Positions 48,980-61,873 of a stretch of 64,000 nucleotides of DNA are shown here, in pieces. The stretch comes from Mercurialis annua. Taxonomy: Eukaryota > Streptophyta > Magnoliopsida > Malpighiales > Euphorbiaceae. A model generated the notes under the pieces. That model was given only the letters and a program-made list of their open reading frames with translations, ran no database searches and had not been told where the DNA came from. The position numbers and the translations under genes are program-made. Positions within the stretch are counted from its first letter, which is position 1; every line of letters begins with the position of its first letter. The stretch lies in the NCBI RefSeq assembly GCF_937616625.2, contig NC_065574.1, forward strand, positions 12,526,501-12,590,500. Reading direction: 5' to 3'.

Positions 48980-50465
48980 TGATAGGAGTAAAATACTCCT
49001 ATATTACGAGTCTCTTTCGCATCGCTTTGTATACTTTTGTTGCATGTTTCGAGTGATTATATCGCTTATTACGTGTTTTACTGTTTCAGGATGAACGAAG
49101 CGTATGTGAAGGGTTTTGAGTCCAAAAGAGCAAAGAATCGATGATATGTGGAAGTCGAGAGAGAGATTGAAGCAAAGGGCGAAGAAGAGATCAAAGAAGC
49201 CTTTCTCCTGCATGGTCTCGATCGAGAAGCACAATTTCACCTTGCTTCTCGATCGAGAAGAAGAGCAAAATTCGGCAGGGATTTTGGACATCAAGCTTCT
49301 CGATCGAGAAGCTGACTTTAATGAAGCTTCTCGATCGAGAAGGGCCAGAATTCAGCATTTCAAATCAGCTTTGGGTCTTGTGCTCTCTTGGCCCACTTCC
49401 ACTTTTGGACAAACAAGCTTGTAATAGGATGTTTTTTATTTCCCTTTTGGGCTTTACTATATTAGGATACCTTATGTCACATTTTAGGGTAAGCCTCTTT
49501 TGTAGCAACATTTATTACTCTAGCAATTATTCCCTTAGTTGGTGTGACTTGTTCTTGGAGATTCCTCCATTGTTAAGGATTTTGAAGCTTTTATTTCCAG
49601 ATTTTGGGTTTTGAATTCATCTTTAATACAAGCTTAGTTATTGAATCTTCATTATCTTGTTCATGCTTTATTGTTCTTCATTGTTATTTGAGGTAAGCTT
49701 TCTCACTTTTATTATGATGATTTACTATTGCTTAGTTGTTGTTTTTACTTTAATCATGAGTAGCTAAACTCCTAGTCTAGGGGTTGTTTATGATTGCTAT
49801 GTATGATTGTTAGATGATTGGTTAGGGTTGTATGGGTTAGGGTTTTGTTGTGTTCAATGATCTTAATGCTTGAAATAAGTTAGCTCCTTATTTGATGTTT
49901 TGTGTTTGATTAGTGAGGACGAGAGTTAAGCTAATTGAATAGACCTTGTTAAACATAAGCTTAAGACCTAAATGCGCGAGAGTGATTTGGGGATTTAGCG
50001 GTTGTTTGAGTTGCGGATTAATCGGATTGATTGTTGTAGTCGACATCCACTTGTGCGAGAGTGATTTGGATTTCGACTCATTAATCAATTGTCGATTCGT
50101 CAATTTCCGGCTCGAGAGAGCGGATTTAGATACTTTAGAACGGCTCGACCCGAACCAACACCCATATACCCGACCTATTACCTAGGAATCTCGATGGCAT
50201 GATTAGCAACCCTTAGGCGCTTTTAATTATCGTTTTTAATCCGTTAATCAATTAATCGTTTAATTCTTAATTGCTTCTTAGTCTAATCAGTGTTTGTTTA
50301 ATTTTAGTTCCGCTGTTTTTAATCAAAAATCCAACTACTCTTTGCTTTCCGAATTGAAAATCAAAGTCAATTTCATTCACTTTAAACCCCTTGTCTTCGT
50401 GGGATCGACATCCGACTTCCGGATTACTACGAGTTGGCATTATTGCGTGAGCATTTTTGTCAACA
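48980..50465 (+). repeat. Athila 5' LTR, 1486 bp
   Basis: It begins TGATAGGAG and ends GTCAACA. A palindrome cassette lies at 49214-49342. A weak TATA-like CTATATTA at 49457-49464 would place that cassette just upstream of transcription start, but this is a guess. The last part carries GTGGGATCGACATCCGAC, a phrase typical of the LTR end in this lineage. Confidence 0.92.
49214..49342. repeat. Palindrome cassette A (5' LTR)
   Basis: Four palindromes based on CTTCTCGATCGAGAAG start at 49214 (two outer bases differ), 49245, 49296 and 49327. The spacings are 31, 51 and 31 bp. Confidence 0.95.
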
Positions 50466-50471
50466 AGTTTT

Positions 50472-50489
50472 TGGCGCCGTTGCCGGGGA
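50472..50489 (+). promoter_or_regulatory. Primer binding site (tRNA-Asp type)
   Basis: TGGCGCCGTTGCCGGGGA lies six bases after the LTR end. It is the complement of the 3' end of plant tRNA-Asp, the known primer of Athila and Calypso elements. Confidence 0.92.
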
Positions 50490-50632
50490 CTAGGTTGCGT
50501 TTAATTGATTGAAAGTATTTTGAAATTCGGTCGAGTTAGCTTTAATTTCTGTTTTTACTTTTATTGTTCGTTCTTGCGTTTTCGTGATTTACGCTCGGTT
50601 CTCTTGTCGTTGTTTGTGTAGGAATTTACCCT

Positions 50633-53600
50633 TTGTGTATGCATAATACACGGCGTGCTAATTTCCCGCTAGAACCTTTTCAAGAGGATCTCGGTAGTTA
50701 CGAAAGAGGAGTGAGAAGAAGAGCCCGGATTCCTTTAGTTATGGAGGGTGACGGACATGGTTATGAGGTAGAGGAAGGATTCAATCCTCTAGTGGACGAA
50801 GGGGAACAACAATACCCACCCCCTCCTCCACTTGAGAATGTGAATCAACAAAGGCAACAAGAGCGACCAAGGGAGGTTCGCCCTCGAGTGCAACCGCAAG
50901 TGCAAAATCAACCGAGGCAAACTTTGGGCGAGTTCTTCTTGCCGGATGTGGATAATGCCACGTTTGGATGTTTTGCTATGCCGGTTCAAGCGGCAACTTT
51001 TGAGATCAAGCCGAGTACTATCCAACTCTTGGAGAACCGTTGTGCTTTCTTTGGGTTGAAGCATGAGGACCCAAATGCCCATATAGCCAAGTTCTTGGGG
51101 GTCCTTAACACGTTCAAGCTTCATGGGATAACCGCGGACCAAATCAAGCTCCGGATGTTCCCTTTTTCTTTGAGGGATAAGGCTAGTTTGTGGCTTCAAT
51201 CTCTACCCAATGAATCGATCCATACTTGGAGGGAGTTGGCTCAAGCTTTCCTTAACAAGTACTTTCCACATGGCAAGACAACGAAGCTAACCAAAGACAT
51301 TCTTGAGTTTGTGCAATTCGACGGGGAGTCGCTCTATGAAGCTTGGGAGCGTTTTAAGGATTTACAAAGGAGTGTGCCCCATCATAAGCTTAACAAGGAG
51401 CATGTGATTCAGATTTTCTATGATGCAACGAATGTCACCACTAGAGCGACTATTGATGCGGCTTCGGGGGGGTCTTTGATGCAAAAGACGTATGAAGAGG
51501 CTCTTGAGTTGGTAGAAAAGTTGGCCATGGTTAGTAGCACATGGGGGCCCACGGAAAGAAGGGCACCGGCTAGTCAAAAGTCGGTAATGACGCTTGACCA
51601 AGTTAAAGAGATGGAGGCTATCAAGGAAAAAAATGCTTCACTCCAAGCACAATTGGATGCTTTGAAAAAACAAGTTGCGCCTAGAAATGCTCCGGTGGCT
51701 TATGTTCAAGTCGGATGTGAGTTTTGTGGTGATTTCAACCATTCGGGGGGAGAATGTCTAGTTACGGGGCAAGCTTTGAGTGAGCAAGTAAACTATGTCG
51801 GGGGTCAAAGACAAGCAAACGATCCTTATTCCAACACCTACAATCCCGGGTGGAGGAATCATCCAAACTTCGGGTGGAGAAATCAAGAGGGGCAAGGCAA
51901 CGCTCAAGGGTCTAATCAAGCGGGTTCAAGTTTTCAAAGCAATAATAGGCCTCCACAACAACAAGGTCACTATCAAGGAAACCCAAACCATGGGAACAAT
52001 TACGGTGGAAGACCACAACATCCTCCCGGTTTTCAACAACCACGGAATACGGATGAGGGAAATGTGCTCGCCAAGGTGCTTGAGAAATTAGAGAAAATGG
52101 AGCAAAGGGAGAAGAACCAAGCTTCCACTATTCACCATTTGGAAACTCAAATTTCTCAAATGGCTATCTCACTTCAAGGTAGAACTCAAGGAGGGTTGCC
52201 ATCCACGACGGAAAATAATCCTAGAGAACATGTTAAGGCGGTAGAGCTCCGAAGTGGGAGAAACCTTGAGAAAGCAAATGGGAAGAAGCATGTTGTGGAG
52301 GAAGATGAACCCCAAATTGTGATTGATATAGCAAGCTCAAGCCAAGAAACACCAAAGGAGCGTGAGGAGGTGGCTATTGAGGATGAAGAGCCTTATGTGA
52401 GACCGCCACCGCCACCACCGTTTGTACCACCGGTTCCATTTCCAAGCCGGTTAAGGAAAGCTCAAGGGAACGAAAAGTTTCATAAGTTCCTTGAGATTTT
52501 CAAGAAATTGCAAATTAACCTTAGCTTGGCGGATGCTCTCCGAGAGATGCCGCAATATGCCAAATTCTTGAAGGATATCATTACCAACAAACGGAGTTGG
52601 GATAGTGGTGCAACGGTTCCCATTCCGGAAGTTTGTAGCTCAATCATTTTGAATGATCTACCGGCTAAGTTGAAGGACCCAGGGAGTTTTTCTATACCTT
52701 GCACTATTGGCACTATGAGTTCTATAAATTGCTTATGTGATCTTGGTGCTAGCATTAATCTTATGCCTCTAACTCTTTTCAGGGAATTATGTGGAGATCA
52801 AACCGTGAAGAGCACCTCGATGGTACTCCAACTAGCGGATCACTCATTGAAGAGGCCGTATGAGATTGTTGAGGATGTGCTTGTGAAAGTGGATAAGTTC
52901 ATATTCCCGGTTGATTTTGTGATCTTGGATTATGCGGTGGATAAGGAATGCCCAATGATCTTAGGGCGGCCCTTTATGAACACCGGGAGAGCTTTGATTG
53001 ATGTGCATGGTGGGAAATTGACCTTGCGAATTGATGAGGAAACGGTTGAGTTCGATATGAAGAAAGCAATGAGGAGTACCATCGAGGAAGAAGAGTGTAT
53101 GAGGGTTGATTTGGTAGATGAAGTTGTGAGGGATCAAGTCGAGGAAAACGTGGAAGCATTCAACCGTGGAACGTTGGAAAAATTTGACAATTTCACCTAT
53201 GCTCAGGAGCTTCTCGATCGAGAAGCACAATTACACCTTGCTTCTCGATCGAGAAGAAGAGGAGAAATTGGCAGAGTTTTCCAACCAAGAGCTTCTCGAT
53301 CGAGAAGCAACTCCCAGTCCACTTCTCGATCGAGAAGCTCAGAAAGGAGGAAGATGTCGCAAGTTTCAAAGGTTGTCTTCCATTCCGATGATCTTAGTGA
53401 TGCATACACCGAAGATGATGAACCTAAGCCGGAGAAATTGAGCAAGAACGATGGTGTGACTCCTCCATCCTCCGAGTTACCACCAATAGTTGAAATGAAG
53501 CCACTTCCGGCTCATCTCCGGTATACTTTTGTGGGGGAGAATGAAACTTTACCGATAATCATCTCCAACAAGCTTTCTACGGAAAAAGAGAAGAGGGTTG

Positions 53601-56386
53601 TGCAAGTAGTGAAAGGGCATGTGTTGGCCATGGGGTGGCAAATTTCCGACATTCGAGGCATAAGTCCGCAAGTGGTGATGCACAAGATCCACCTTGAGGA
53701 TGGAGCCAAGAATTGTACTCAAAGGCAAAGAAGGTTGAACCCTAATATGAAGGAGGTTGTGCACAAGGAAATAGTAAAGCTTCTAGATGCCGGGATTATT
53801 TATCCGATCTCCGATAGTGGTTGGGTGAGTCCGGTTCAATGTGTGCCTAAGAAGGGAGGAATGACGGTAGTAGAGAACGAGAAAGGGGAACAAATCTCTA
53901 CACGAACGGTTACCGGGTGGAGAGTTTGTATTGACTATCGAAGGTTGAACGCGGAGACCCGGAAGGACCACTACCCGCTACCATTCATCGATCAAATGCT
54001 TGAAAGGGTGGCGGGTCACAAGTACTATTGCTTTCTCGATGGCTATTCCGGCTACAACCAAATCTTGATCTTTCCGGATGACCAAGAGAAAACAACGTTC
54101 ACATGTCCCTATGGTACCTTTGCGTACCGACGAATGCCCTTCGGTTTATGCAACGCACCCGCCACATTTCAGAGGTGCATGACCTCGATATTCAATGATA
54201 TGGTGGAAGATATAATGGAGGTATTCATGGACGATTTCTCCGTTTTTGGTGACTCGTTTGATGGTTGTTTGGCGAATCTTGAGCGTGTTCTAGCACGGTG
54301 TGAGGAGACCAACTTGGTGCTTAATTGGGAGAAATGCCATTTCATGGTAGAAGAGGGAATTGTGCTCGGGCATAGAATCTCGGAAGCGGGTATTGAGGTA
54401 GATAGGGCAAAGACAGAGGTTATAGAGAAGTTGGTGGCTCCGGTGACGGTTAAAGGAGTCCGGGCATTTTTGGGCCACGCGGGTTTCTATCGCCGGTTCA
54501 TCAAGGATTTCTCATCCATTGCGAGGCCATTAACGAGTTTGCTAGTAAAGGATGCCCCATTTGAGTTCACCAAGGAGTGTCAAGAGGCTTTTGAGAAATT
54601 GAAGGAGGCCCTTGTGACCGCTCCTATTATTTCATCTCCGGATTGGAACTTGCCTTTTGAGCTTATGTGTGATGCAAGCGATCAAGCCTTGGGATGTGTA
54701 TTGGGTCAACGGAAGGACAAGAAAGTGCATGTGATCTATTATGCAAGTCGGACAATGGCGGGGGCCCAACTCAACTACACCACTACCGAAAAGGAAATGT
54801 TGGCGGTAGTTTTTGCTTTGGATAAATTTCGGCAATACTTGCTTGGGTCCAAGTGTATCATCTACACCGACCATGCCGCTTTGAAATACCTCTTTACCAA
54901 GCAAGATGCCAAGCCAAGACTAATCCGATGGATCCTCCTAATGCAAGAATTCGACATCGAGATTCGGGATAAAAAGGGCACGGAGAATGTGGTGGCGGAC
55001 CATTTGTCAAGATTCGAGAATCCGGAGCCAATTCCTCTCGGTATGGAAATCAACGAGTGGTTTCCGGACGAAACGCTTATGGTGATCCGGGAAATGGAAA
55101 CTCCATGGTATGCCGACATTGCTAACTTCCTTTCATCTAAGGTGATGCCTCCGGATTTGACGCACCATCAAAGGAAGAAGTTCCTTTCCGATGCTAAGAG
55201 GTTTCTTTGGGATGAGCCGTATTTGTTTAAGGAGTGTGGAGACGGAATGTTGCGGCGTTGTGTCGCTTTGAAGGAAATGATGCCCATCTTGGAGGCTTGT
55301 CATACATCCGATTACGCCGGTCATTATGGAGTGGCAAGGACCGCCGCTAAGGTGTTGGAGAGCGGATTCTTTTGGCCTACCTTATTCCGTGATGCTAAGG
55401 ACTTTGTGAGCCATTGTGATAGGTGCCAACGGGTTGGGAACATTTCTAAAAGGGATGAGATGCCGTTGACTTCGGTGCAAGAGGTAGAGATCTTCGATGT
55501 TTGGGGGATTGACTTCATGGGTCCCTTTCCGATGTCGCATGGGAACTTATATATTTTAGTTGGCGTATGTTACGTATCGAAATGGGTGGAAGCGGAAGCT
55601 CTACCTACCAATGACGCCAAGGTAGTTTTGAAGTTCCTCAAGAGGTTGATGAATCGGTTTGGCACCCCACGAGTTATTATTAGCGACGGTGGATCTCATT
55701 TTTGCAACCGGCAATTCGATGCATTAATGAAGAAGTACAATGTGTATCACCGGGTTGCTACCCCCTATCATCCGCAAACAAGTGGGCAAGTTGAGGTCTC
55801 TAACCGGGAGTTGAAGCGAATATTGGAGAAGACGGTGAATGGGACTCGCAAGGATTGGAGTTTGAAGCTTGACGATGCATTATGGGCATATCGCACGGCA
55901 TTCAAAACGCCATTAGGTATGACCCCTTATCGCATTGTGTATGGGAAAGCATGTCATCTACCCTTGGAATTAGAGCACCGGGCCTATTGGGCGATTAAAA
56001 AGTTGAATTTTGATCTAAAAGCGGCGGGGGAAAAACGCTTGTTGCAATTGAATGAATTGGAGGAATTCCGGTTCTTGGCATATGAGAATGCGAAGCTTTA
56101 CAAGGAGAAGACCAAGCGGTGGCACGATGCCCACATTTCCCCTAAAACTTTCGAAGTTGGAACGTATGTATTGGTGTATAATTCGAGGTTGAGATTGTTT
56201 CCGGGAAAGCTTAAGTCCCGATGGAGTGGACCATTTAAGATTCGGAGTGTGGCGAATCATGGTGCCATTGAGTTGGAGAATCAAGGAGGTGAAACGTTTA
56301 AGGTCAACGGACACCGTTGCAAGCCTTACTTGGGGCCTTTAACGGATCAAAAGGGGGAACAATGTTATCTCGACCCCGCCCCATGA
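50633..56386 (+). CDS. Athila gag-pol polyprotein, 1917 aa
   Basis: This is one uninterrupted frame encoding the capsid and all enzymes of the element. The gag domain covers about residues 120-280, with a CCHC zinc knuckle at about 361-375 ([14 protein letters not shown]). The protease is at about 690-790 ([10 protein letters not shown], then ILGRPFM). The reverse transcriptase is at about 1040-1270 ([13 protein letters not shown] in place of YxDD, usual in this lineage). RNase H is at about 1340-1460 ([22 protein letters not shown]). The integrase is at about 1550-1750, with an HHCC zinc site ending CDRCQ and the D, D, E residues in [15 protein letters not shown] and [12 protein letters not shown]-type C-terminal module is near 1850 ([13 protein letters not shown]). 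Residues 860-903 are an Arg/Ser-rich insertion encoded by a palindrome cassette. All catalytic motifs are present. The start could be the next ATG, six bases on. Confidence 0.95.
53210..53337. repeat. Palindrome cassette B (inside gag-pol)
   Basis: Four perfect copies of CTTCTCGATCGAGAAG start at 53210, 53241, 53292 and 53322 (spacings 31, 51 and 30 bp). In the gag-pol frame they read LLDRE once and SRSR three times, in the linker between protease and reverse transcriptase. The frame stays open through all four. Confidence 0.95.
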
Positions 56387-56680
56387 GTTCTACAAGCAAG
56401 AATGGTCGAGCTTTTGACTGAAAACAAGCGCACTTGGGAGGCATTCCCAAGCGGTTAGATTTTCTTTCTTTTTACCTATTTCTGTCGTTTTAGTTATTTA
56501 CTTTGAGAAATTTTCATTTTTGAATTAGCTTAGTTTTGTTTATTTCATTTGTTCTCTTTAATGCCGGGGTGTTCATGTTGTTGATGTGTAGAAAATAGAA
56601 TAGCACGGAGCTAATTTGAGTTGGGAAGCATTGGACAAGACTTTTGGAAGTTTTGAAAGAAGTTGTGCAGATATCAGGGG

Positions 56681-56810
56681 CTTCTCGATCGAGAAGCCAT
56701 TTTTGGCCTATGCTTCTCGATCGAGAAGAAGAGCAAAAATTGGCAGGGAATTCCTCAAGGGAGCTTCTCGATCGAGAAGCTAGTTTAAATGATGCTTCTC
56801 GATCGAGAAG
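56681..56810. repeat. Palindrome cassette C (leader of the second frame)
   Basis: Four perfect copies of CTTCTCGATCGAGAAG start at 56681, 56713, 56764 and 56795 (spacings 32, 51 and 31 bp). They lie between the end of gag-pol and the likely start of the second Athila frame. Confidence 0.95.
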
Positions 56811-57162
56811 CATGAAGAGTCTGAATTTGAATTTCGAATTTTTTGCCAATTTTTGCTTCCCTAGGTCCAACATTTGCACATGGGGGTGTGAGGTGGTTCA
56901 TTCTAGGCCATTGGATACATCAAACACAAAGCACAAGAAAGGGAATGTCATTTTCAAGGAATATTCAAAATTCAAAATTGAATTTCTCTCTTTAAAAAAA
57001 GCCCCAACACTTCATCTTCTTCCTTCATCTTTTCCATTTCAAGCAAAACACCATAACTTCTTCTCTCTTCAAGCAAAAATTCGGCCACCCCTTTCACCAC
57101 CTAAACCACCACCAAACTTCAACCTAAACACATATTTACCCACCCTTTTGCCTATAGTTATC

Positions 57163-58524
57163 ATGGCCGGAACCTCAAGGGCAAGCAAAGGAAAGTCCGC
57201 CGCCACCGCACCCACCCCCGTTCCGAGACCTCTCCGAGGAAAGAAGAAGACCGCCTCCGGTGCATCGGTTGTGGGACCCAACACACCGGGTTCCCTCACA
57301 AGGAAATATGAAGCACCCTTCGAGATCCGCTCCGACGAGGAAGGCAAGCGTTTCCTAGAATTGAAGAGCCAAAAATTCGCCATTCCCTATCAAATTAATT
57401 GGGAAGATATGGGCCGTTTGGGGTTAATCGAAGAAGTGGAGCAATACTTGGAGCCGTTGGGTGTGCTCACACTCGCTAAAGCGCCGGAGGTGGGGTATGA
57501 GGAATTGACTTGGGAGTTTTTCACAAGTCTTAAATTAGAGGAAGGGTACTCCAATTCGTTAATCGTAAGGTTGTTTGGAGTGGAATACGAATTAGGGGTA
57601 TCCGCTCTAAAAAGGAAGCACGGAATGAAGGCGGATGGTTTGCGCACCAACCCGAGGCAATTTGACTACAAAGGGGTGTGGAAAGAGGTATCGGATTTGG
57701 AGGGTTATCAAGCGAAGACGGCCAAGGTAAACGACATCAAGGACACCGCTCTTGTGGTGGCGGTGAAATGGCTTGGCCATACCTTCGGGGGGCGTCACGA
57801 GTACAACAAGGTGGGGGAAACCGAGGTTGTGATGATGAATGCCATGATGCATCCCGAGGTGGCCGATTATCGGATTGACTCCGCCAACCGCCTAATTACC
57901 ACTTTTATCGATGTTCCGGAGGCGGGCACAAAACTCGGTTTTGGATGGTTGGTCACCCGTATAGCGAAGGAGTTTGGCGTCCCCAATGAGAAGTTCGAAG
58001 GACTCACCCCGATACCGTCTCGCTCCATTGATATCAAGCATCTTGACAAGGCCGGATATGTTCACAAAGGGAATGTTGTTCCCTATTTCAAACGAGGCCC
58101 ATGGCTAAAGGCGCACGGGCAAGAAGCGGCGAGACAAGCGGAATTTGGCGGTCAAGGTGGAGAAGAAGAGCATGGCGAGGAGGGTGATCAAGAGCTTGAT
58201 CAAGAACAACCGGCACCTAGAAGAGAAAAGGAGCCGGTAAGAAGAAGAGAGAAAGCAACGGAGGAACCGGAGGTTCAAGAAGAAGGGGCCCAATGGGGCC
58301 AACCATGGGCCACTAGCTCACATGGGGGAAGTAGCTTTGAGGATGAACAACGCCAATTTATGGCGGAGCAAAGGAGAATTTGGAACGAAACTAGATATGA
58401 AATGAAGCGGCTCCGTCATAGGCAAAGAAGGGAAGCGGAAAAATTGCAAGCATACTTCAATGCCCAAGGAGGGCCCCACTACCCGTCACCTACTCCATCC
58501 CCCGAACCCCCGGCGTTCGACTAG
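57163..58524 (+). CDS. Second Athila frame, env-position protein of unknown role, 453 aa
   Basis: This frame lies where Athila and Calypso elements carry an extra gene. I take ATG 57163 (ATCATGGCC context) as the start. The frame is open back to 56644 and could add 173 residues that include palindrome cassette C. The N-terminus is basic and Ala/Pro-rich. The middle (about residues 50-320; FLELKSQKFAIPYQINWEDM, then FGVEYELGVSALKRKHGM) resembles the plant transposon-protein domain found in many Athila second frames. The C-terminus is acidic then Arg-rich, with a probable coiled coil (RRIWNETRYEMKRLRHRQRR). I see no signal peptide or membrane segment, so it does not look like a classical envelope protein. 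No function can be assigned. Confidence 0.75.
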   Translation: MAGTSRASKGKSAATAPTPVPRPLRGKKKTASGASVVGPNTPGSLTRKYEAPFEIRSDEEGKRFLELKSQKFAIPYQINWEDMGRLGLIEEVEQYLEPLGVLTLAKAPEVGYEELTWEFFTSLKLEEGYSNSLIVRLFGVEYELGVSALKRKHGMKADGLRTNPRQFDYKGVWKEVSDLEGYQAKTAKVNDIKDTALVVAVKWLGHTFGGRHEYNKVGETEVVMMNAMMHPEVADYRIDSANRLITTFIDVPEAGTKLGFGWLVTRIAKEFGVPNEKFEGLTPIPSRSIDIKHLDKAGYVHKGNVVPYFKRGPWLKAHGQEAARQAEFGGQGGEEEHGEEGDQELDQEQPAPRREKEPVRRREKATEEPEVQEEGAQWGQPWATSSHGGSSFEDEQRQFMAEQRRIWNETRYEMKRLRHRQRREAEKLQAYFNAQGGPHYPSPTPSPEPPAFD

Positions 58525-60145
58525 CGAGATTTGCATTTTCTAACCCTATCTCTTACAATTTCTTGTTTTATTTTATTTCTTGCTTAAGGGACTAAGCTAG
58601 AAATAGTTTGAGGAGGGTAGCGAAATTGTATCTCGTTTCTATCTTTTATTGCTTTATGTTGTGTTTTATTTTTGTTAATTTTAGTTGCTAGAGTTTAGTT
58701 AGGTTGTTTTGTCGCCTCCACTAAAGCTCTTGTACTAAGCATGTGAAATGAATCGAAAATGAGAATTAGTCACTTGGCAACGTGTTGAACCATATCAATG
58801 TGTATTATCTCTCGTGTCTTATTGCCATAATGCATTTGTTTAGATTTAACAACTTTGATTAAATGCGTGCTTAATGGATGTAATTCGATATGACATGTGT
58901 GAAGGGATAGTGTTTAAATTGATCTTTAGTTATTAATCTTTGGATGTGATGGTTTAAACTTAATACGGTTGCATGATGTGCGAAATCGTGAAAAATTTGT
59001 GTTGGCATAATTTGGGCATAATTGGCATGAAAACATAGGGATTGAACAATAGGCATAACACCACATTTTTCATATTGAGTTATTTCGAGCCTACTTGTCT
59101 TTGTGAGTGTTGCCTTGTCCGGAATTCCTAGAATTTGCTCGGTGTCCATTCAAAATTGCATTGTTGAGTGATTGATAATTAAATGACTATGGCATTAGGT
59201 GTAACCATTCTAGAGACCGCTTAAAAAGCCTACCTTTAACCTTTAGATAGCCAATTTTGAGCTTAGACCTTTGTTGATATTACCATGCTAACAACACAAT
59301 CCCTTTCTTAATTTTCCACTTTAATTCACCCAACTTGACTTGACAACTAGTGTGAGGAGGAGAGGGTAATAGCTTGATGAACATAAAGAGGAGTGAACTT
59401 GAACTAAAAGTGAAATTAGTGCCTAAGAAAGAAGAAGAAAGAAAAATATAAAAATATGCAAGGGAAAGAAAAAAATCCAAAAAGAGAAAAAAAAAAAAAA
59501 AGAAAGAAAGAAAGAAAAAAATAATATAAAGGCATGAGATTGAGTTAAGCGTTCAAAAAGAGTTCAAAAATATAAAAAGTCCAAGCTAGCCCAAGTTCTT
59601 ATCAATGTTTTAACTAGTTTCAAGTCAAGTTTTAGCCTAAAGTATCAACTTTGATCTACCCCGACCTTGGCCACGTTACAACCCGTGCAAGCCCATGAGA
59701 TAATTATTGATCACCGAGCTAAGTAGTGGAGTTTAGGACTATGAGCAAACCTATGGGAATTCCGTGTTTGTGTGCTTAATTTTTTTTTTTATCTAAACAC
59801 TTGTGTGTTAGAGCGATACCTAGTGAGGATTTTGATGCCTAGGTTCAATTGTTTATGTTTGATTATTGCCATGACTTGCCCTACATTGTTGCTTAACCAA
59901 ATAATCGCATGTCCCGTAAACGATGGTGATAGCTTGAGTGTTCAAGATTAATGTTAAACTAATGCAATTGTGTTCTCTTTGCCTTCGCATTATGTCATTA
60001 CAAATTGCATTACTCATTTGTTCGCATTGATTATAGTTGTTGACATTAGACATTTGCATTTGTACAATTTGGTAATGGGAGTATGAATATTGATGTGTGT
60101 TCAACCTTGCCAATGTCTCTAAGTTAGTTGTGGTTTAATGCATTT
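58525..60145 (+). other. Athila 3' non-coding region
   Basis: This is 1.6 kb between the second frame and the polypurine tract, with no frame of note. A purine tract of A and GAAA repeats lies at about 59400-59525. It is internal to the retrotransposon and unlikely to contain a host gene. Confidence 0.7.
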
Positions 60146-60165
60146 CTTGCTTGAGGACAAGCAAG
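60146..60165 (+). other. Perfect hairpin upstream of the polypurine tract
   Basis: CTTGCTTGAGGACAAGCAAG forms an 8-bp stem with an AGGA loop. I recall near-identical words before the polypurine tract of other plant Athila-type elements, so it may be a conserved RNA signal. Confidence 0.8.
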
Positions 60166-60170
60166 GTTTA

Positions 60171-60183
60171 GTGTGAGGAGGTT
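60171..60183 (+). promoter_or_regulatory. Polypurine tract
   Basis: GTGAGGAGGTT runs up to the first base of the 3' LTR, the position where plus-strand priming occurs. Confidence 0.75.
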
Positions 60184-61669
60184 TGATAGGAGTAAAATAC
60201 TCCTATATTACGAGTCTCTTTCGCATCGCTTTGTATACTTTTGTTGCATGTTTCGAGTGATTATATCGCTTATTACGTGTTTTACTGTTTCAGGATGAAC
60301 GAAGCGTATGTGAAGGGTTTTGAGTCCAAAAGAGCAAAGAATCGATGATATGTGGAAGTCGAGAGAGAGATTGAAGCAAAGGGCGAAGAAGAGATCAAAG
60401 AAGCCTTTCTCCTGCATGGTCTCGATCGAGAAGCACAATTTCACCTTGCTTCTCGATCGAGAAGAAGAGCAAAATTCGGCAGGGATTTTGGACATCAAGC
60501 TTCTCGATCGAGAAGCTGACTTTAATGAAGCTTCTCGATCGAGAAGGGCCAGAATTCAGCATTTCAAATCAGCTTTGGGTCTTGTGCTCTCTTGGCCCAC
60601 TTCCACTTTTGGACAAACAAGCTTGTAATAGGATGTTTTTTATTTCCCTTTTGGGCTTTACTATATTAGGATACCTTATGTCACATTTTAGGGTAAGCCT
60701 CTTTTGTAGCAACATTTATTACTCTAGCAATTATTCCCTTAGTTGGTGTGACTTGTTCTTGGAGATTCCTCCATTGTTAAGGATTTTGAAGCTTTTATTT
60801 CCAGATTTTGGGTTTTGAATTCATCTTTAATACAAGCTTAGTTATTGAATCTTCATTATCTTGTTCATGCTTTATTGTTCTTCATTGTTATTTGAGGTAA
60901 GCTTTCTCACTTTTATTATGATGATTTACTATTGCTTAGTTGTTGTTTTTACTTTAATCATGAGTAGCTAAACTCCTAGTCTAGGGGTTGTTTATGATTG
61001 CTATGTATGATTGTTAGATGATTGGTTAGGGTTGTATGGGTTAGGGTTTTGTTGTGTTCAATGATCTTAATGCTTGAAATAAGTTAGCTCCTTATTTGAT
61101 GTTTTGTGTTTGATTAGTGAGGACGAGAGTTAAGCTAATTGAATAGACCTTGTTAAACATAAGCTTAAGACCTAAATGCGCGAGAGTGATTTGGGGATTT
61201 AGCGGTTGTTTGAGTTGCGGATTAATCGGATTGATTGTTGTAGTCGACATCCACTTGTGCGAGAGTGATTTGGATTTCGACTCATTAATCAATTGTCGAT
61301 TCGTCAATTTCCGGCTCGAGAGAGCGGATTTAGATACTTTAGAACGGCTCGACCCGAACCAACACCCATATACCCGACCTATTACCTAGGAATCTCGATG
61401 GCATGATTAGCAACCCTTAGGCGCTTTTAATTATCGTTTTTAATCCGTTAATCAATTAATCGTTTAATTCTTAATTGCTTCTTAGTCTAATCAGTGTTTG
61501 TTTAATTTTAGTTCCGCTGTTTTTAATCAAAAATCCAACTACTCTTTGCTTTCCGAATTGAAAATCAAAGTCAATTTCATTCACTTTAAACCCCTTGTCT
61601 TCGTGGGATCGACATCCGACTTCCGGATTACTACGAGTTGGCATTATTGCGTGAGCATTTTTGTCAACA
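60184..61669 (+). repeat. Athila 3' LTR, 1486 bp
   Basis: It appears identical to the 5' LTR throughout, with no insertion or deletion between them. It ends GTCAACA directly against the 31-bp minisatellite. Confidence 0.93.
60418..60546. repeat. Palindrome cassette A (3' LTR copy)
   Basis: The same four palindromes as in the 5' LTR start at 60418, 60449, 60500 and 60531. Confidence 0.95.
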
Positions 61670-61670
61670 A

Positions 61671-61873
61671 GGGCCACCGCGGTCAACGCCGGTCAACGAC
61701 CGGGCCACCGCGGTCAACGCCGGTCAACGACCGGGCCACCGCGGTCAACGCCGGTCAACGACCGGGCCACCGCGGTCAACGCCGGTCAACGACCGGGCCA
61801 CCGCGGTCAACGCCGGTCAACGACCGGGCCACCGCGGTCAACGCCGGTCAACGACCGGGCCACCGCGGTCAAC
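61671..61873. repeat. 31-bp minisatellite, about 6.5 copies
   Basis: A 31-bp unit starting GGGCCACCGCGGTCAACGCC repeats at 61671, 61702, 61733, 61764, 61795, 61826 and 61857 (the last partial). I see no differences between full copies. Each unit holds two GGTCAACG words. The unit is GC-rich in AT-rich surroundings. Because 31 is not a multiple of three and no frame has a stop, all three plus-strand frames are open across it. Confidence 0.97.

Follow-up and report, generated by a model that had tools for sequence, protein, structure and literature searches.

The window analysed here is a 64,000-bp stretch of the Mercurialis annua genome (contig NC_065574.1, positions 12,526,501 to 12,590,500 of the forward strand), and it harbors a recent Athila-type (Ty3/gypsy) retrotransposon along which a cassette of four short palindromes recurs. 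The two long terminal repeats (LTRs) of this element, both on the + strand at 48980..50467 (5′ copy, its end uncertain by 1-2 bases) and 60184..61671 (3′ copy), are 100% identical over 1488 bp. Between them, on the same strand, lie a gag-pol open reading frame (ORF) of 1917 residues (50633..56386) containing gag, reverse transcriptase (RT), RNase H and integrase (Pfam matches PF03732, PF00078, PF17917, PF17919, PF17921 and PF00665) and, 3′ of pol, ORF2 (57163..58524), an env-like ATHILA ORF of 453 amino acids matching PF03078 (E = 2.1e-06; 27.3 bits against a cut-off of 20.2). A gag-pol homologue annotated in M. annua is 98% identical over the 201 residues searched. TGGCGCCGTTGCCGGGGAC, found at 50472 after the 5′ LTR, is presumably a match to tRNA-Asp and as such a candidate primer site. 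Each LTR opens with the inverted repeat TAGGAGTAAAATACTCCTA (48980-49003 and 60184-60207), and a GC-rich tandem array of 31-bp units (61671-61873; 6.5 copies matching at 100%) follows directly on the 3′ LTR.

The palindrome has the core TCTCGATCGAGA and, in the window, the arm CTTCTC. All 16 sites listed by an earlier sequence-only reading of this DNA were re-located at its coordinates; 14 are perfect, and in the other two GG replaces CT at the left end, while shuffled sequence gave a mean of 0.12 matches (largest 1) at ≤3 mismatches. The cassettes, to which no strand is assigned, are the LTR cassette at 49214..49342 (palindromes at 49214, 49245, 49296 and 49327) with its 3′ copy at 60418..60546 (60418, 60449, 60500 and 60531), the pol cassette at 53210..53337 (53210, 53241, 53292 and 53322) and the pre-ORF2 cassette at 56681..56810 (56681, 56713, 56764 and 56795). 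Spacings between palindrome starts are 31/51/31 in both LTRs, 31/51/30 in pol and 32/51/31 before ORF2, exactly as that reading had given them. Its count of four cassettes is right for the places occupied, but two of these are the same place in identical LTRs, so that only three cassettes (LTR, pol and pre-ORF2; 11 of 12 sites perfect) are independent. The LTR cassette begins 234 bp into the LTR, and the pre-ORF2 cassette sits 352 bp before ORF2. The pol cassette lies in frame within the single open gag-pol, 5′ of the RT domain, where it is translated as LLDRE and SRSR.

Palindrome types and their spread in the genome

The exact palindrome of the window (type A) has at least 745 copies genome-wide, compared with 0 for a reversed control; such counts of repeats may be lower bounds. 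From a single chromosome, seventeen stretches were taken around exact palindromes at the first listed places, and all of them hold sequence that aligns to the window LTR, some at only ~68% identity. A second palindrome, type B (TGTCTCGATCGAGACA), is used by sister families and has 517 copies, and its fetched examples are often four-site cassettes of similar layout. Hybrid sites with one arm of each type number 133 (58 + 75) against 745 A-A and 517 B-B sites, whereas by our own arithmetic random joining of halves would give ~679; GGTCTCGATCGAGACC was counted 17 times. Further arm types among the fetched loci are TGTTTC..GAAACA, TGTCTTGG with CTTCTCGA, and TGTCAC..GTGACA, and in the LTR of locus L023 all four sites differ from those of the window at 4 of 16 bases each. 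The switch of arms is visible in protein as well: the gag-pol proteins P0002 and P0003 read CLDRD, VSIET and VSRSR as against LLDRE and SRSR in P0001, the homologue that shares the marks of the window gag-pol. Such reading-frame marks occur in three of five M. annua gag-pol proteins. Two findings weigh against full generality: neither A nor B marks are present in the gag-pol of P0004 and P0005, and in L018 the pol of a second, divergent Athila lacks any site. A protein from Tanacetum, P0006, is likewise free of such marks. Arm types are also combined within many cassettes, one type bordering the short spacers and others lying outside, so that arm switching is a tendency and not a rule. Families appear to have tended to switch the arms of most sites together.

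The B arm is exactly TGTCTC, which, with GAGACA, we take to be the auxin response motif, with a TGTC core expected in each half-site. Recruitment of auxin response factors by these arms is nevertheless a highly improbable account of the cassettes: the arm of the window, CTTCTC, lacks the TGTC core, and neither it nor the arms GGTCTC and TGTTTC are this motif.

Several fetched loci depart from the layout of the window element. L006 and L007 hold a mosaic element in which gag-pol pieces of 732 and 886 amino acids are 95-96% identical to the window protein, the LTR is ~68% identical at the nucleotide level, ORF2 is 39% identical as protein and the pol cassette has arms of a different type. L006 also has an extra cassette 3′ of ORF2 (L006:4003-4132), a place where the window element has none. 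The short element in L005 has two LTRs with no gag-pol match between them, and still has cassettes plus an internal two-site copy. B-type sites in L027, L032 and L048 lie in AT-rich stretches where no LTR was recognised, that of L027 being a 21-bp tandem. No A palindrome pair 8-22 bp apart was found in viral contigs.

Site spacing and position relative to the promoter

Adjacent sites no more than 64 bp apart (283 pairs, 51 of them non-redundant) are spaced by 20-22, 27-33, 41-42 or 49-54 bp, and none of the 283 pairs falls at 23-26, 34-40, 43-48 or 55-64 bp. These classes appear to lie close to 2, 3, 4 and 5 helical turns: for 47 of the 51 non-redundant pairs, which are related by descent, the spacing deviates from a multiple of 10.45 bp by at most 2 bp (uniform lengths would give 42%), and the best-fitting period is 10.75. 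All 67 spacings of ≤60 bp in a smaller, earlier set of 24 non-redundant cassettes fell at 20-21, 29-33, 41-42 or 51-53 bp. The idea that sites are set at helical turns, proposed for the window alone, thus extends to many other cassettes.

A TATA-box-like sequence, ACTATATTA, stands on the + strand at 49456..49464, 113 bp past the LTR cassette. It is aligned in 11 LTRs, ten of which have ACTATA, L017 having AATATTTAA. Among 19 hand-picked LTRs the distance from the end of the last site to the ACTATATAA-like box is 111-116 bp in 15 and 127 bp in one, and the remaining three have no regular-expression match to the box. Because this distance is nearly fixed, the promoter-region binding site suggested by the sequence-only reading fits the arrangement. 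Past the pre-ORF2 cassette, at a distance of 180 bp, lies the TATA-like TTTAAAAA (56991..56998, + strand), a weak assignment made by eye. On the same weak footing, a TATA-like stretch was seen in five of six aligned elements (missing in L013); where its distance from the cassette was measured, in four elements, it lies 149-180 bp past it. This region is a possible internal promoter of ORF2.

Conservation of the sites relative to their spacers

That palindromes are preserved between diverged spacers had been read from the window, and it is borne out across related LTR cassettes. Mean pairwise p-distances in six of them are 0.021 for palindromes, 0.264 for spacers and 0.164 for 200-bp flanks. 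The corresponding values are 0.051, 0.429 and 0.275 when three more divergent LTRs are added (n = 9), and 0.031, 0.186 and 0.079 in three B-type LTRs. When one perfect site per fetched locus is dropped to correct for ascertainment, the palindrome distance becomes 0.030; site 1 alone, which is never an exact match to the search word, gives 0.062.

A conserved appearance could also arise without selection, if template switching or gene conversion copied the palindromes as non-functional, homogenised repeats. Sites within a cassette are alike, and halves shuffled within a cassette match as well as the true halves of a site (54 matches observed, 56.8 expected); moreover, L075:293-428 has five sites repeating every 30 bp. 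However, homogenisation would be hard to confine to 16-bp words while the 15-bp spacers between them diverge, and it explains neither the distance to the TATA-like box nor the phased spacing, so we regard it as unlikely.

A probable protein-binding array

We consider it probable, from the arrangement of these sequences, that the cassette acts at the level of DNA, as an upstream activating (or anti-silencing) array in which a multimeric protein binds inverted 8-bp half-sites. Such a protein would bind the sites of a cassette cooperatively and would need all of them on the same side of the helix, and its binding would raise transcription from the LTR promoter and from the possible internal ORF2 promoter. 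It would be common to several element families, either as a host factor or as ORF2 acting in trans, and a joint change of arms is what would be expected in families if the binding protein had altered its specificity. The cassettes themselves probably moved between positions and elements through template switching during reverse transcription.

A number of observations weigh against such an array. Every locus was found via a palindrome. The 51 site pairs share descent and fall into only four length classes, so that the phasing is a strong pattern whose statistical weight is less than the count implies, and eight longer spacings (65-99 bp) in the set of 24 cassettes show no clear fit to the rule. 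The pol cassette has no obvious adjacent promoter. Pfam finds no established DNA-binding domain in ORF2, where a single helix-turn-helix match is insignificant (E = 0.26), and the single-sequence fold model of ORF2 is poor (predicted local distance difference test score, pLDDT, 41.6) and usable only in a C-terminal helix. In 27 non-redundant four-site cassettes, for which all 24 pairings of left and right halves were compared, the symmetry of each site with its own partner half ranks only 22nd (46 of 108 matches), and the pairing of site 1 with 2 and of site 3 with 4 shares first place (71 of 108). These ranks agree less well with palindromes that are independently bound by homodimers than with hairpins or with dyads whose centre is a short spacer.

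The preference for pairing across sites was also assessed cassette by cassette: 13 favour the 1-2/3-4 pairing, one favours the own partner and 13 tie. Palindromes as independent homodimer units were rejected on the rank of own-partner symmetry. A cloverleaf pairing of the four sites beats own-partner pairing (10 against 2), yet it is not the best pairing. Given these ranks, the dyad seems to be centred on the short spacers and not on each palindrome, and such a dyad suits a protein assembly that bridges two sites, as it also suits a hairpin.

Hairpins would form if adjacent palindromes, in RNA or in single-stranded DNA, paired with each other into 16-18 bp stems, and could serve RNA dimerisation, packaging or the feeding of the small-RNA pathway of the host, a role put forward for the palindromes of maize Sireviruses. 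Beyond the joint best rank of the 1-2/3-4 pairing, RNA folding pairs the first site with the second and the third with the fourth in the LTR and pol cassettes, and the three 161-base cassette stretches have predicted folding energies of -72.5 to -77.8 kcal/mol; a small-RNA excess has been reported over palindrome clusters of maize Sireviruses (PMC10760457; this and the other papers cited by PMC number are considered in excerpt). However, hairpins predict neither helical-turn spacings nor a fixed distance to a TATA-like box. The LTR cassette lies 5′ of that box and should therefore be absent from the 5′ end of the RNA. Spacer ends show no significant complementarity, which also led us to reject hairpins reaching into the spacers, and E-type sites such as TGTCTCGACCAAGACA in L005, L006, L007 and L009 have a centre that is not self-complementary. 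Dimerisation of genomic RNA, one of the roles offered by the sequence-only reading, is disfavoured in the form given there by the position 5′ of the TATA-like box, by the inverted copies described below and by these non-self-complementary sites. Phasing, the distance to and position 5′ of the TATA-like box, and the occurrence in both orientations favour a DNA-bound protein over RNA, and we hold the hairpin explanation to be rather unlikely.

ORF2 as a candidate binding protein

ORF2 might itself be the protein that binds the arrays and lifts silencing, by analogy with VANC, which would be a version of the protein-bound array compatible with it. Within an arm type, ORF2 proteins are 71% identical (window against L018, type A) or 77% identical (L051 against L052, type B), and between arm types 38-48%, while the gag-pol of the window shares 73-75% identity with segments of P0002-P0004; in addition, the motif arrays lie in the LTR, in pol and in the pre-ORF2 region, as VANC motifs likewise occupy several regions. 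The link between ORF2 group and arm type may, however, be mere joint descent of LTR and ORF2. A related cassette also occurs in an element of another type, and neither Pfam nor comparison with solved structures revealed a DNA-binding domain in ORF2. We view this possibility as doubtful, though it merits more weight than the hairpins. In the alignment of L051 and L052 ORF2, a hypervariable block at columns 138-175 agrees at 14 of 38 positions and the surrounding columns at 215 of 252.

Scans of six ORF2 proteins with Pfam returned PF03078 in all six and PF20167 in four, and the only significant matches were ATHILA and Transposase_32 (no VANC profile was among those tested). Protein searches found no homologues of ORF2. 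Among solved structures, only G-protein gamma chains were matched, weakly and by the C-terminal end (best E = 0.41). A suspected likeness of ORF2 to the plant mobile domain was not listed by the Pfam scan. The 'DOWN' motif associated with MAIN/MAIL1 showed no link to the cassettes in the excerpt considered (PMC7156037).

Related cassettes in a second element type and in both orientations

B or B-like palindromes spaced 20/53/20 were found in L035, L049 and L050 in another LTR family. Pieces beside these LTRs match the chromodomain end of the L055 gag-pol: L053 is 41% identical over residues 1553-1598 and L054 58% over residues 1579-1602, and residues 1553-1596 of L055 are a Pfam match to PF00385 (Chromo). 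The filing of the L049-type element as chromodomain-type rests on these short matches. In both L049 and L050 the cassette ends 37 bp before the TATA-like TATTTAAA. The middle spacer of L049, when inverted, matches the pre-ORF2 spacers of B-type elements (z = 4.9, best against 12 spacers in two orientations), and the inverted middle spacer of the B-type pol cassette matches that of the B-type pre-ORF2 cassette (z = 7.4). As far as such spacer matches tell, cassettes with related spacers occur in both orientations and in two element types. A more far-reaching reading, which we put forward only tentatively, is that the cassette is a mobile operator common to unrelated transposons within one genome. 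It would be a phased, orientation-independent enhancer of Athila, chromodomain-type and possibly small non-LTR elements, copied between elements and re-tuned as a whole when the specificity of its regulator changed, which would make these elements a regulon under one DNA-binding protein.

Comparison with known systems

The sequence-only reading did not recognise the arrangement as described. The nearest precedent is the repeated motifs of Sireviruses (Bousios et al. 2010, PMC2829016), which in the excerpt considered are palindromic boxes of Ty1/copia elements, placed both in the upper part of the LTR and 5′ of env, 12 of 13 with a CGG-CCG core. The arrangement is to that extent not wholly undescribed. 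The window element resembles these motifs in having at least eight palindromic copies (16 sites) placed in the upper LTR and before an env-like gene, and in both systems the palindromes vary between elements. It differs in its core, TCTCGATCGAGA and not CGG-CCG, and in belonging to Ty3/gypsy, with the domain order RT, RNase H, integrase followed by an ATHILA ORF. Four-site cassettes, an in-frame copy in pol and the occurrence of a related cassette in an element of chromodomain type set it further apart, and so do the helical-turn spacings, phasing not being mentioned in the excerpt of PMC2829016. Palindrome clusters in the LTR cis-regions of maize Sireviruses are similar, but the excerpt discusses them as a source of small RNA (PMC10760457).

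VANC motif arrays (Hosaka et al. 2017, PMC5735166) are spread over several non-coding regions of VANDAL21, and the unrelated AT9TSD1 likewise carries VANC6 motifs. As excerpted, that system shares with the cassettes short motifs that lie in several regions, vary between families and occur in an unrelated element. However, its elements are DNA transposons with a YAGTATTAY motif and a demonstrated transposon-encoded binding protein (PMC5735166), whereas a binder of the cassettes is only predicted. The short interrupted repeat cassettes (SIRC) of Arabidopsis (PMC10342631) are short repeats with dissimilar DNA between them; some have palindromic arms, 4-9 bp long, and certain Athila families are among those in which they occur. 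They are defined by direct repeats through a CRISPR finder and form a looser class of cassettes, and the excerpt of PMC10342631 mentions neither a constant place in the promoter nor helical spacing nor arms that change together. The BII boxes of Tnt1 are LTR boxes bound by host DNA-binding factors, but they are defence-induced and from tobacco, and the excerpt mentions no copies of a cassette in a coding region (PMC3316501).

A literature search over titles and the beginnings of abstracts found no description of such Athila cassettes, the Sirevirus paper being nearest. Nothing was found on M. annua together with Athila, and the word TCTCGATCGAGA led, by title, only to E. coli and bee microRNA topics. 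What we regard as new here are the convergence of a Ty3/gypsy element on the Sirevirus layout, the helical register, the coding copy, the arm switching and the probable exchange between element types.

To our knowledge, the activation of plant retrotransposons, and the readability of their promoters under silencing, is known for few elements. In M. annua, presumed binding sites can be read from the sequence of several families in one genome, with differing arms and a common layout and register. The arm types would allow one to ask whether the binder is a host factor or ORF2, a protein whose role is disputed. The cassette looks like a control switch copied by jumping genes and may have been exchanged between them; if cassettes are indeed shared in this way, regulatory switches, and not only whole elements, would spread through genomes.

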